From positions 3,067,001 through 3,131,000 of the forward strand of contig NZ_CP015109.1 of the NCBI RefSeq assembly GCF_002082015.1: DNA of 64,000 nucleotides. The letters are read 5' to 3'. Positions 37,296-42,092 of the stretch are shown piece after piece. How positions within the stretch are numbered: the stretch's first letter is position 1; each line of letters opens with the position of its first letter. Position numbers and translations under genes: made by a program. Under the pieces are notes generated by a model. It was not told where the DNA came from. It saw only the letters and a program-made list of their open reading frames with translations, and searched no databases. This DNA comes from Sporosarcina ureae (GTDB taxonomy: Bacteria > Bacillota > Bacilli > Bacillales_A > Planococcaceae).

Positions 37296-38105
37296 ATGAT
37301 TCGCTCAATGTACTCAGGAATTTCTGGACTAAAGAACTTCCAAACGAAATTAGATGTAATTGGTAACAATATTGCTAACGTGAATACTTATGGATTTAAG
37401 AAGGGGCGTACGGTTTTTAAGGATTTGTATTCGCAGACTGTTGCGGGTGCATCGGAACCTGGTGCAAATCGTGGTGGTGTGAATCCGAAACAGGTTGGTT
37501 TAGGATCTCAATTAGCTACCATTGATACTATTCATTCTGGTGGGTCTATGCAGACTACTGGAAATACATTAGATTTGGCTATTGAAGGTGATGGTTTCTT
37601 TGTAGTTGAAGATGGAACGCAAAAATTTTATACCAGAGCAGGAAACTTTTATTTAGACGCTGGAGACGGTACAGGAGAAGCCTCTTTGGTAGACGGTGAT
37701 GGGAGATACGTCTTAAACAGCGATGAAAGTCATATTACAATTCCAATAACGGCTACTTCACTTTCAATTGGTCAAGATGGGAAGGTAGTATTTGTTAATG
37801 CTGATGGCGAACTAGATGAACGTGGCCAAGTAGCTGTCGCTAAATTTAACAACTCAGGTGGTCTGACAAAGATTGGCGGTAATCTATATCAGGAATCAGC
37901 GAACTCAGGTGCGCCATCTGATCTATTAACTCCTCTTGAAGAAGGAAGAGGAGCGATAAGATCTGGCTCCCTAGAAATGTCCAACGTAGACCTCTCAGAA
38001 GAGTTCACAGAAATGATCGTTGCACAACGTGGATTCCAAGCCAACACGCGAATCATCACCACATCAGATGAAATCTTACAAGAACTAGTAAACTTGAAAC
38101 GATAA
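37296..38105 (+). CDS. flgE: Flagellar hook protein FlgE
   Basis: FlgE builds the hook. The 269-residue protein is of the short bacillar type. It starts MIRSMYSGISGL, has LDVIGNNIANVNTYGFK at the N-terminus, LDLAIEGDGFFVV in the core, and the C-terminal VDLSEEFTEMIVAQRGFQAN coiled-coil region. The open frame extends back to 37185, but the family start and a GAGGGG site fix ATG 37296. The first half uses many T-ending codons (GGT, GTT, ACT, GCT), unlike neighbouring genes. FlgG is a related alternative, but position before swrD favours FlgE. Confidence 0.9.
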   Translation: MIRSMYSGISGLKNFQTKLDVIGNNIANVNTYGFKKGRTVFKDLYSQTVAGASEPGANRGGVNPKQVGLGSQLATIDTIHSGGSMQTTGNTLDLAIEGDGFFVVEDGTQKFYTRAGNFYLDAGDGTGEASLVDGDGRYVLNSDESHITIPITATSLSIGQDGKVVFVNADGELDERGQVAVAKFNNSGGLTKIGGNLYQESANSGAPSDLLTPLEEGRGAIRSGSLEMSNVDLSEEFTEMIVAQRGFQANTRIITTSDEILQELVNLKR

Positions 38106-38120
38106 CATAGCATAGTTTGA

Positions 38121-38159
38121 AAAGGAGGGTCGGGCCGGCCTTGGCCTGGCCCCTTACAT
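38121..38159 (+). promoter_or_regulatory. Ribosome site separated from the swrD start by a GC-rich hairpin
   Basis: A strong AAAGGAGGG (38121-38129) is followed by a 21-base GC-rich inverted repeat (38132-38152): GGGCC pairs with GGCCC, and an inner GGCC pairs with GGCC across a very small loop with one bulged T. The swrD ATG is at 38160, 30 bases after the Shine-Dalgarno sequence. With the hairpin folded, the effective gap is about 9 bases. No other Shine-Dalgarno match lies near the ATG and no T-run follows, so it is not a typical terminator. Confidence 0.65.
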
Positions 38160-38384
38160 ATGATTAAAGTGACAAGATTGAATCGAACGACTTTCACACT
38201 CAACGCACTGTACATAGAGAGAGTCGAGTCGTTTCCAGATACGACGATTACGTTGACGACTGGATCAAAGTACGTCGTTCTGGATTCAGCCGAAGAAGTA
38301 AACAGCCGGATCATTGAGTTTTATCGTGCAGTCCAGCTACTATCCAATCCGCATATTCGGGGTGATGAAGAAGATGAAGAATAA
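38160..38384 (+). CDS. swrD: Swarming motility protein SwrD (YlzI, FlbD family)
   Basis: SwrD is a small protein that raises flagellar motor power in B. subtilis and is needed for swarming. The 74-residue product begins MIKVTRLNRTTFTLNALYIE and continues VESFPDTTITLTTGSKYVV, matching the FlbD/YlzI family; the tail is acidic. The ATG has no adjacent ribosome site; the strong one is 30 bases upstream beyond a hairpin. The 3' end overlaps fliL. Confidence 0.92.
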   Translation: MIKVTRLNRTTFTLNALYIERVESFPDTTITLTTGSKYVVLDSAEEVNSRIIEFYRAVQLLSNPHIRGDEEDEE

Positions 38385-38805
38385 ATTATTGACGATTTCA
38401 TTGATCATTTTAGTGAGTATTACGTTGATCGGTGTCGTGGCGGTCGTATTGATATTGAATTTCAACAAAGACAGTGACGGAGAAGAAAAAGCACCGTCAA
38501 TTGATGAAATTATTGAGTCATCAGTGGATATGGAAGAAATTACAACAAACTTATCTGGCCGTAATTTTGTCCGTATCTCTCTGAAAATCCAGACAGACAG
38601 TAAAAAGGCAGCAGAAGAATTAACGAAACGCGATTTTCAAGTGAAGAACCTAGCTATTCAAGAACTATCGGAAATGACCACAAAAGATCTTGAAGGGAAA
38701 GCGGGAAAACAACAATTTGAAGATACTATTAAAGCGAAGTTAAACGAGCTGATGCAAGATGGTGAAATACAAAAGGTGTATATTGTCTCATATATCATCC
38801 AGTGA
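38374..38805 (+). CDS. fliL: Flagellar basal body-associated protein FliL
   Basis: FliL is a single-pass membrane protein near the stator. A short basic N-terminus (MKNK) is followed by the membrane segment LLTISLIILVSITLIGVVAV, and the outer domain includes SVDMEEITTNLSG, KRDFQVKNLAIQEL and ELMQDGEIQKVYIVSYIIQ at the end. GTG 38362 and ATG 38365 are also in frame; GGGGTGA (38359-38365) favours ATG 38374, which overlaps swrD by 11 bases. Length 143. Confidence 0.93.
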   Translation: MKNKLLTISLIILVSITLIGVVAVVLILNFNKDSDGEEKAPSIDEIIESSVDMEEITTNLSGRNFVRISLKIQTDSKKAAEELTKRDFQVKNLAIQELSEMTTKDLEGKAGKQQFEDTIKAKLNELMQDGEIQKVYIVSYIIQ

Positions 38806-41051: not shown

Positions 41052-41414
41052 ATGGGAAAACGAATTTTGGTAGTAGATGACGCGGCATTTATGCGCATGA
41101 TGATTAAGGATATCTTAACAAAGAATGATTACGAAGTAGTAGGAGAGGCAGCGGACGGTGCACAAGCTGTCGAAAAGTATAATGAACTGAAGCCCGACTT
41201 GGTAACAATGGATATTACGATGCCTGAAATGGACGGCATTGCTGCTCTGAAAGCAATTAAAAGTACGAATCCATCTGCAACTATCATTATGTGTTCCGCA
41301 ATGGGACAACAAGCAATGGTAATCGATGCAATTCAAGCCGGAGCCAAAGACTTTATCGTTAAACCATTCCAGGCAGACCGTGTGATTGAAGCGATCGACA
41401 AAGCGTTGAGCTAA
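41052..41414 (+). CDS. cheY: Chemotaxis response regulator CheY
   Basis: CheY is a single receiver domain that carries the signal from CheA to FliM/FliY. The acidic pair Asp9-Asp10, the phosphorylation site Asp54 in TMDITMPEMDG, Ser/Thr in MCSAMGQ and Lys in DFIVKPF are all present. GGAGGG (41039-41044) precedes ATG 41052; the frame also opens at TTG 41037 on the ribosome site itself. Length 120. Confidence 0.97.
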   Translation: MGKRILVVDDAAFMRMMIKDILTKNDYEVVGEAADGAQAVEKYNELKPDLVTMDITMPEMDGIAALKAIKSTNPSATIIMCSAMGQQAMVIDAIQAGAKDFIVKPFQADRVIEAIDKALS

Positions 41415-41423
41415 CTGTCAATT

Positions 41424-42092
41424 ATGAATGTAAAACGAATAATCCAATGTGTACTACTACTCATTCTGTGTTTTGCCATCATGCCATTTGCTTATGCAGA
41501 AACAGATCCTGACGTCAGTGTATCAGACTGTATTGGAAAGAATAAAGACTGCGAAGAAAAAGCACCAGCTGCAGAGAATGATAATCAAAAAGAAGTAACG
41601 AATAAGGAATTGGACGAGCCTAAAGGCCTTACAGCAAAAGATTATATTCGAACTCTTTTTGCATTCGTATTTGTAATCGGCTTGCTCGTGTGGTTACTAC
41701 GTTTCATGAACAAACGTAATAGAAATTTTGACTCCAATCGACTGATGACAAATATGGGCGGAGTTCCGTTGGGTCAAAATAAATCTATTCAACTAGTGAA
41801 AATGGGTAATCATTATTTTGTAGTCGGTGTTGGAGAAAATGTACAGCTACTAAGGGAAATTGAAGATCCTGATGAAATTGCTGAGTTGCTCGCACGTTAT
41901 GATCAAGGCAATGATGTTCAGAAGGGCATATTTTCACAATTATACTCACGGTTTTTCTCAAAAGCCGAGCATCCTCCTTCAGAAGAAGCTACATTCAGTC
42001 AATTGTTTTCTTCCAAAATGGATGAAATCAAAGCTGATCGTAAAGAACAATTACAACGTTTAAATAGGAAGGAGAGCGACCGCGATGGTTGA
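41424..42092 (+). CDS. fliO: Flagellar biosynthetic protein FliO (FliZ)
   Basis: FliO stabilises FliP during export-gate assembly. A signal peptide (MNVKRIIQCVLLLILCFAIM, cut near AYA-ET) is followed by a soluble outer segment with two Cys (SDCIGKNKDC), a membrane segment (LFAFVFVIGLLVWLLRFM) and a cytoplasmic tail. The long bacillar form is 222 residues. No recognisable ribosome site precedes ATG 41424; it lies nine bases after cheY, so coupling is likely. Its end overlaps fliP by eight bases. Confidence 0.88.
   Translation: MNVKRIIQCVLLLILCFAIMPFAYAETDPDVSVSDCIGKNKDCEEKAPAAENDNQKEVTNKELDEPKGLTAKDYIRTLFAFVFVIGLLVWLLRFMNKRNRNFDSNRLMTNMGGVPLGQNKSIQLVKMGNHYFVVGVGENVQLLREIEDPDEIAELLARYDQGNDVQKGIFSQLYSRFFSKAEHPPSEEATFSQLFSSKMDEIKADRKEQLQRLNRKESDRDG

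Follow-up and report, generated by a model that had tools for sequence, protein, structure and literature searches.

A conserved hairpin between a distant Shine-Dalgarno sequence and the start codon of swrD in Sporosarcina ureae and its relatives: a probable split ribosome binding site

Introduction

The flagellar gene swrD of Sporosarcina ureae raises a simple question, namely how ribosomes find its start codon, as the only strong Shine-Dalgarno (SD) sequence lies 30 nt upstream and a GC-rich inverted repeat occupies most of the interval. An initial annotation of this DNA, made from its letters alone, proposed that the repeat folds into a hairpin across which the ribosome initiates, an arrangement known in a few phage genes.

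The published precedents considered here for initiation across a folded helix are single cases, found in phage T4 and in the thrS gene of Escherichia coli. In thrS, a hairpin separates the SD from the AUG, and the gene product binds its own leader hairpin and blocks the ribosome, which constitutes an autoregulation. In excerpts of PMC3936740, the ribosome binding site of thrS is called split, and its leader is said to contain large RNA structures. The clear phage precedent is that of T4 genes 38 and 25, in which structure shortens the SD-AUG distance from 22 to 5 nt and from 27 to 11 nt, respectively, and destabilising mutations lower translation; for gene 25, the split site was tested by reporters and DMS probing (PMC3014915, section 29). 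Split sites were also sought among 58 genes without a canonical motif, with no convincing case in the excerpted text of PMC1805508, where Bacillus subtilis is described as poorly tolerant of structure near start codons. The main text of a study on initiation in S. aureus never mentions a hairpin or stem-loop (PMC13009471). According to excerpts of PMC9195833 and PMC6878767, Hall et al. (2018) reported that SwrD raises the power of the B. subtilis flagellar motor, and swarming cells of Paenibacillus polymyxa contained about 6 times as much of their SwrD homologue (PMC6878767). The element studied here is not described among the matches listed for swrD (ylzI), split sites and flagellar hairpins, a literature that these matches cover in part.

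Results

Layout of the swrD start

The window, i.e., the whole 64,000-nt stretch of the S. ureae chromosome that was analysed, contains swrD between flgE and fliL (Table 1). The distant SD is followed by the inverted repeat GGGCCGGCCTTGGCCTGGCCC (38132-38152), in which 18 of 21 nucleotides are G or C. Of the 30 nt that separate the end of the SD from the ATG, 2 + 7 = 9 nt lie outside the hairpin; the coordinates originally annotated for the SD, the repeat and the ATG, as well as the 30-base gap, all hold in the window sequence. The predicted duplex with the anti-SD amounts to -12.1 kcal/mol for the distant SD vs -2.5 for the best near SD, that is, the strong site is too far and none of the near ones is usable. 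Folded without the SD, the interval reaches -15.1 kcal/mol, and the hairpin of the window species folded alone displays 8 bp, with U38147 bulged.

The swrD start is fixed at 38160, in agreement with the annotation, because its reading frame is closed upstream by an in-frame TGA (38118-38120), 38160 is the first ATG, GTG or TTG afterwards, and the SwrD N-terminus is conserved, with L7 and N8 invariant across 35 aligned proteins. The in-frame stop at 38118 rules out an upstream alternative start. The hairpin was also considered as a dispersed GC-rich repeat or mobile element, which was discarded, since a search tolerating up to 3 mismatches finds a single copy, both in the window and genome-wide; the next model match has an E value of 0.75. 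An Rfam search of 37900-38500 gave 5 matches, every one under its family's gathering score.

Table 1. Features of the swrD start region (positions in the window).
Feature	Position	Strand	Basis and remarks
flgE, upstream gene	37296..38105	+	Pfam Flg_bbr_C, LlgE_F_G_D1, Flg_bb_rod; stop codon 38103-38105
Distant SD sequence, AAAGGAGGG	38121..38129	+	Anti-SD duplex -12.1 kcal/mol; conserved among relatives
Putative bridging stem, 5' arm, GGGCCGG	38132..38138	+	Two-sided changes at 6/7 pairs, 70 distinct family sequences
Loop	38139..38145	+	Length and sequence vary among relatives; expanded in L046 and L063
Putative bridging stem, 3' arm, CTGGCCC	38146..38152	+	Fold and family covariation
Unpaired 7-nt spacer ahead of the start codon	38153..38159	+	Sequence; outside-stem median 9 in samples
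swrD (FlbD family), 74 aa	38160..38384	+	ATG 38160-38162; PF06289, 92 bits
Alternative slipped fold hiding the SD	38127..38152	+	Energy-favoured; family register without covariation
fliL, overlapping the swrD end	38365..38805	+	Start 38365 or 38374; PF03748

Conservation and covariation in the family

The family set comprised the best 80 of 523 relatives in a named genome collection, and all 80 upstream regions were inspected; the nearest named relatives, S. ureae and its kin (L001-L005), share 96-99% SwrD identity. The SD, hairpin, short spacer and start were recognised by eye in 78 of these 80 loci. In Sporosarcina sp. HYO08 (L061) the hairpin is absent and the SD weak, and in the Kurthia loci L040, L042 and L048 the stem sequence is unlike that of the family (most so in L042 and L048) yet still pairs. 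An automatic call was positive in 77 of the 80 loci; it misses L007 and L071, in which the arrangement is present by eye, as well as L061, and its call of L063 rests on a spurious site, because the true SD is located beyond the 90-nt scan. In another set of 235 matches, the 30 loci returned and those reached otherwise were read. Among 30 further loci of the genus, the automatic call misses L091 and L096, both positive by eye.

The initial annotation had advised comparing the same gap in related species for paired base changes, and such compensatory changes were found, both here and in the order sample described below. A MAFFT alignment (A1) comprised 75 rows, 70 of them distinct, without L003-L005, L046, L061 and L063. 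Pairing holds in 96.7% of the cells of its 7-bp stem, vs at most 67.8% in slid registers. Two-sided changes affect 6 of the 7 pairs (1.5 in shuffles) and 14 cells (1.8 in shuffles), and none of 500 shuffles matched either observed count. Furthermore, RNAalifold recovered 6 of the 7 stem pairs unaided from the family alignment, and the intervals of 97% of 64 distinct family loci fold better than their mononucleotide shuffles (p<=0.05).

Spread across the order

We also sampled the order of genome G370, by inference Bacillales (120 genomes, 112 with swrD). The arrangement, in which a hairpin separates a strong distant SD from the start and the near SD is much weaker, was called in 105 of 112 loci and 42 of 44 families, an automatic figure in which a wrong, farther SD was picked in L278, L288 and L295, with L289 doubtful (near duplex -7.4), so that some long gaps are overstated. 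Seven loci were not called positive (L252, L254, L256, L291, L292, L298 and L309). Among the 104 distinct positives, the near SD is weaker than -5 kcal/mol in 101, and 96% of the intervals fold better than mononucleotide shuffles (p<=0.05). Stem sequences are diverse across this sample.

Alignment A3 gathered 90 of these 104 positives, the 14 with gaps >45 being dropped. Selection of its rows for the presence of a hairpin biases it towards pairing; 80.7% of cells pair vs 69.5% in shuffles, at a mean column identity of 38%. Two-sided cells amount to 114 vs 40 ± 10 in shuffles, with a covariation score of 0.428 vs 0.251 ± 0.013. One measure, the count of pairs altered on both sides (8 vs 7.3 in shuffles), shows no excess, and 35 of the 90 rows leave pair 18-43 open.

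Distance held outside the stem

Among positives, the linear gap from SD to start has a median of 36 nt in the order and 35 nt in the family, and the nucleotides outside the stem have a median of 9 in both samples. The standard deviation of this outside length is 2.1 (family) and 3.1 (order), vs 5.7 and 6.3, respectively, in shuffled intervals; once five mis-picked or doubtful loci are removed, it is 2.1 and 2.9, compared to 10.5 and 8.3 for the gap itself. Gaps are mostly of 30-40 nt and exceed 45 nt in 10 of 100 order and 4 of 63 family loci, hence few loci can tell whether long gaps are bridged. Psychrobacillus psychrodurans (L046) retains the stem across a gap of 76-77 nt, and L273 closes its 87-nt gap with a stem of at least 15 bp. 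In the one draft genome of Ureibacillus manganicus (L063), 201 nt separate the SD from the AUG, and both stem arms are intact; the loop of about 177 nt is highly folded, the seven closing pairs have a predicted probability of 0.87-0.92, and 10 nt remain outside. The loop segment L063:2790-3000 looks like a small palindromic insertion, three fragments of which had no match in the other fetched loci.

Neighbouring genes served as controls, using the same test on the distinct starts of flgE, fliL, fliM and fliY in the same 157 loci (the fliL query takes 38374 as start). No control was positive (flgE 0/146, fliL 0/49, fliM 0/108, fliY 0/88; 0/391 in total), vs 125 of 148 distinct swrD starts. A near SD of -7 kcal/mol or stronger is present in all flgE, fliL and fliM starts and in 86 of the 88 of fliY. 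The annotated proposal that folding shortens the SD-ATG gap to about 9 nt is thus well supported by the compensatory changes, the near-constant outside length, the absence of the arrangement in controls and the intact arms of L063.

Distribution in the class and phylum

A sample of the class Bacilli (151 genomes, 110 matches, all 110 read) included 28 positives. The window's family contributed 8 (of 9 loci), the order of G370 contributed 10 (of 10), and families f8, f19 and f32 together 7 (of 7); the remaining 3 are spread over 84 loci from 19 other families. The near SDs of these last three are -6.8 (L347), -2.7 (L342) and -10.3 kcal/mol (L182). The swrD ribosome site is ordinary in most other Bacilli families, with a near SD of -7 kcal/mol or stronger in 69 of their 84 loci. 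Among Bacillota outside the class, 30 of 79 matches were read, and the three positives (L366, L371 and L377) still have a near SD, at -8.6 to -8.9 kcal/mol.

Relatives that keep the swrD start, lack any stem and have another site, named by the initial annotation as counter-evidence, do exist (L061, 12 of 24 loci in genus g13 and 7 of 112 in the order), but near the window they are a minority. Together with the ordinary site of most other Bacilli families, these negatives indicate that the hairpin-bridged site is dispensable. Genus g13 gave 24 matches in 30 genomes, 12 of them called positive; half have the hairpin, and half have lost it and have another SD (L116-L118, L123, L124, L126, L128, L129, L132-L135), so gains and losses of the hairpin could be dated there. 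In L189, L203, L214 and L218 the swrD start overlaps the flgE stop (TGATG) and an SD is absent; swrD is probably translated by coupling in these loci.

An intercistronic role, in mRNA stability, processing or transcription pausing, would account for a hairpin whose place between SD and AUG is incidental. By eye, a GC-rich hairpin is found just upstream of an ordinary swrD SD in other Bacilli families (L174-L176, L179, L181, L186, L190, L195, L196, L205 and L209) and in many Bacillota outside the class (30 of 79 matches read), and upstream folds of -10 kcal/mol or below occur in 70 of the 84 other-Bacilli swrD loci. This count is unspecific, however, as 114 of 146 flgE and 25 of 108 fliM starts display such folds, and since it is not separable from flgE upstream regions, no conclusion was drawn on an ancient junction hairpin elsewhere. 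An incidental position also leaves unexplained the loss of the near SD in 101 of 104 order positives, the near-constant outside length and the intact arms of L063. We regard this explanation as unlikely; a second, intercistronic role alongside bridging is compatible with our results.

A slipped fold that hides the SD

The initial annotation had proposed folding 38100-38200, and the outcome was divided: the stem forms when the SD is excluded, but with the SD included a slipped register is the minimum-energy fold. In this fold and in the ensemble, SD bases pair with the 3' arm and the spacer (38127-38137 with 38142-38152, extended by 38123-38125 with 38153-38155). The slipped, SD-hiding fold is energy-favoured in the window and in most of its family, where the free mRNA is predicted to be mostly closed (SD mostly unpaired in only 10% of 71 loci), the partner of the SD is inside the interval in 62 of 71 loci, and the slipped register is able to pair in 95.3% of cells.

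These features would suit a translational off-switch, with the slipped fold hiding the SD until something opens it. Nevertheless, the slipped register has 1 two-sided cell vs 1.6 in shuffles and a covariation score equal to shuffles, so it was rejected as a conserved fold; likewise, SD-spacer complementarity showed no excess over shuffles in 37 family and 90 order loci and was rejected as a selected closed state. The predicted cost of exposing the SD is 7.1-8.2 kcal/mol in the window, depending on context, with medians of 6.7 in 71 family loci and only 2.4 in 98 order loci, and the SD-ribosome duplex exceeds it in 68 of 71 and 98 of 98 loci, respectively. With covariation on the bridging stem and none on the slipped register, selection is visible on the stem and not on the occluding fold, and a dedicated off-switch seems to us very unlikely; the occluding fold may still lower swrD expression. 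A pseudoknot between SD and loop was also rejected (longest complementary run 2.90 vs 2.80 in shuffled loops, n=168).

Heat, flgE and the SwrD protein

Temperature, an RNA-binding protein or a ribosome stopping on flgE had been suggested as possible ways of tuning SwrD. For temperature we found little support: the predicted energy of the isolated stem is -15.1 kcal/mol at 37 C and remains as low as -9.7 at 60 C, which makes melting by heat unlikely. An RNA thermometer was rejected on this prediction, and the hairpin looks constitutive rather than temperature-sensitive in the folding model.

Tuning by ribosomes that stop on flgE fared no better, as the window's 54 nt between flgE stop and swrD ATG become anything from 16 to 446 nt elsewhere in the family (stop located in 78 of the 80 loci). 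Translation of swrD mainly by ribosomes finishing flgE, through coupling or reinitiation with the hairpin only modulating, can appeal to the order sample, in which the stop has a median position 13 nt before the SD end and is within 25 nt in 88% of 105 loci (rough values, because a loose stop pattern was used and some are negative), but is most improbable given a family median of 72 nt, with distances >100 nt in 21 of 78 loci and up to 446 nt, and the hairpin retained.

Regarding a protein factor, the SwrD structural model (mean pLDDT 88.5) has five strands and a C-terminal helix, and Foldseek found no match to it at E<=0.001. With VIA-align, the best match was RemA (Z 5.5, rmsd 1.4 A over 48 residues), and the LytTR domain of AgrA reached Z 4.5, both weak matches under the level that VIA-align calls telling. 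SwrD as a known RNA-binding fold was rejected given the empty Foldseek result and the weak RemA match; on the predicted model, the resemblance to the DNA-binding RemA and LytTR may bear on the role of SwrD. A rather unlikely extension of bridging is that motor power is governed through the hairpin as an ancient translational operator. The hairpin would then remain exposed during 30S binding, and a trans-acting factor, possibly SwrD itself, would set SwrD level by binding it or by shifting it between the bridged and SD-hiding registers.

Discussion

Our comparisons make it quite probable that the ribosome binding site of swrD is split and bridged by a hairpin. A strong SD too far from the start, with no usable SD near it, a stable and covarying hairpin wholly between SD and AUG, and 9 nt left after folding (5 and 11 nt in the T4 genes) all point in this direction. 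In the proposed mechanism, the 30S subunit would pair with the strong distant SD while the stable hairpin absorbs 21 nt (about 190 in one relative), and the approximately 9 nt that remain outside the helix would allow the AUG to reach the P site. Judging from sequence, ribosomes would use the site with the hairpin folded, and the bridged site would set the amount of SwrD made, which suggests that SwrD level is set at initiation.

The likeness to T4 genes 38 and 25 is close, since in them too the SD is too distant from the AUG and intervening structure brings both closer. The T4 cases are phage genes, and according to PMC3014915 (section 29) the gene 25 arrangement is found only in close T-even phages, whereas swrD is a bacterial flagellar gene with an order-wide arrangement, including one gap of about 200 nt, known here from sequence comparison. 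Our best reading is that the swrD site is of the same kind as the T4 and thrS split sites, and of unusual breadth and age. A difference to thrS is that the latter is autoregulated by its own product, while the swrD hairpin has no known ligand. The slipped fold of the window resembles the SD-sequestering structures at the initiation regions of T4 gene e and I-TevI (PMC3014915, section 29); in swrD, by contrast, covariation backs the SD-free stem and not the occluding register.

Relatives across the order differ in stem sequence, in loop length and in the flanks, yet share the fold and the net distance. A hairpin kept order-wide appears to hold a split start signal at working distance, representing a long-lived, RNA-shape-dependent mode of ribosome binding, and swrD offers a natural system for the study of initiation across a folded helix. 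Methods that score near SDs alone will misjudge this gene.

Other reading frames in the window

The remaining reading frames of the window were also scanned for an SD-hairpin arrangement; the scan was too lax at internal start candidates and was set aside. One observation concerns the reading frame at 41414-42089 (+), which follows another ending near 41411: its early start candidates show no good SD (best -2.0 kcal/mol), and it is possibly coupled to the preceding gene.
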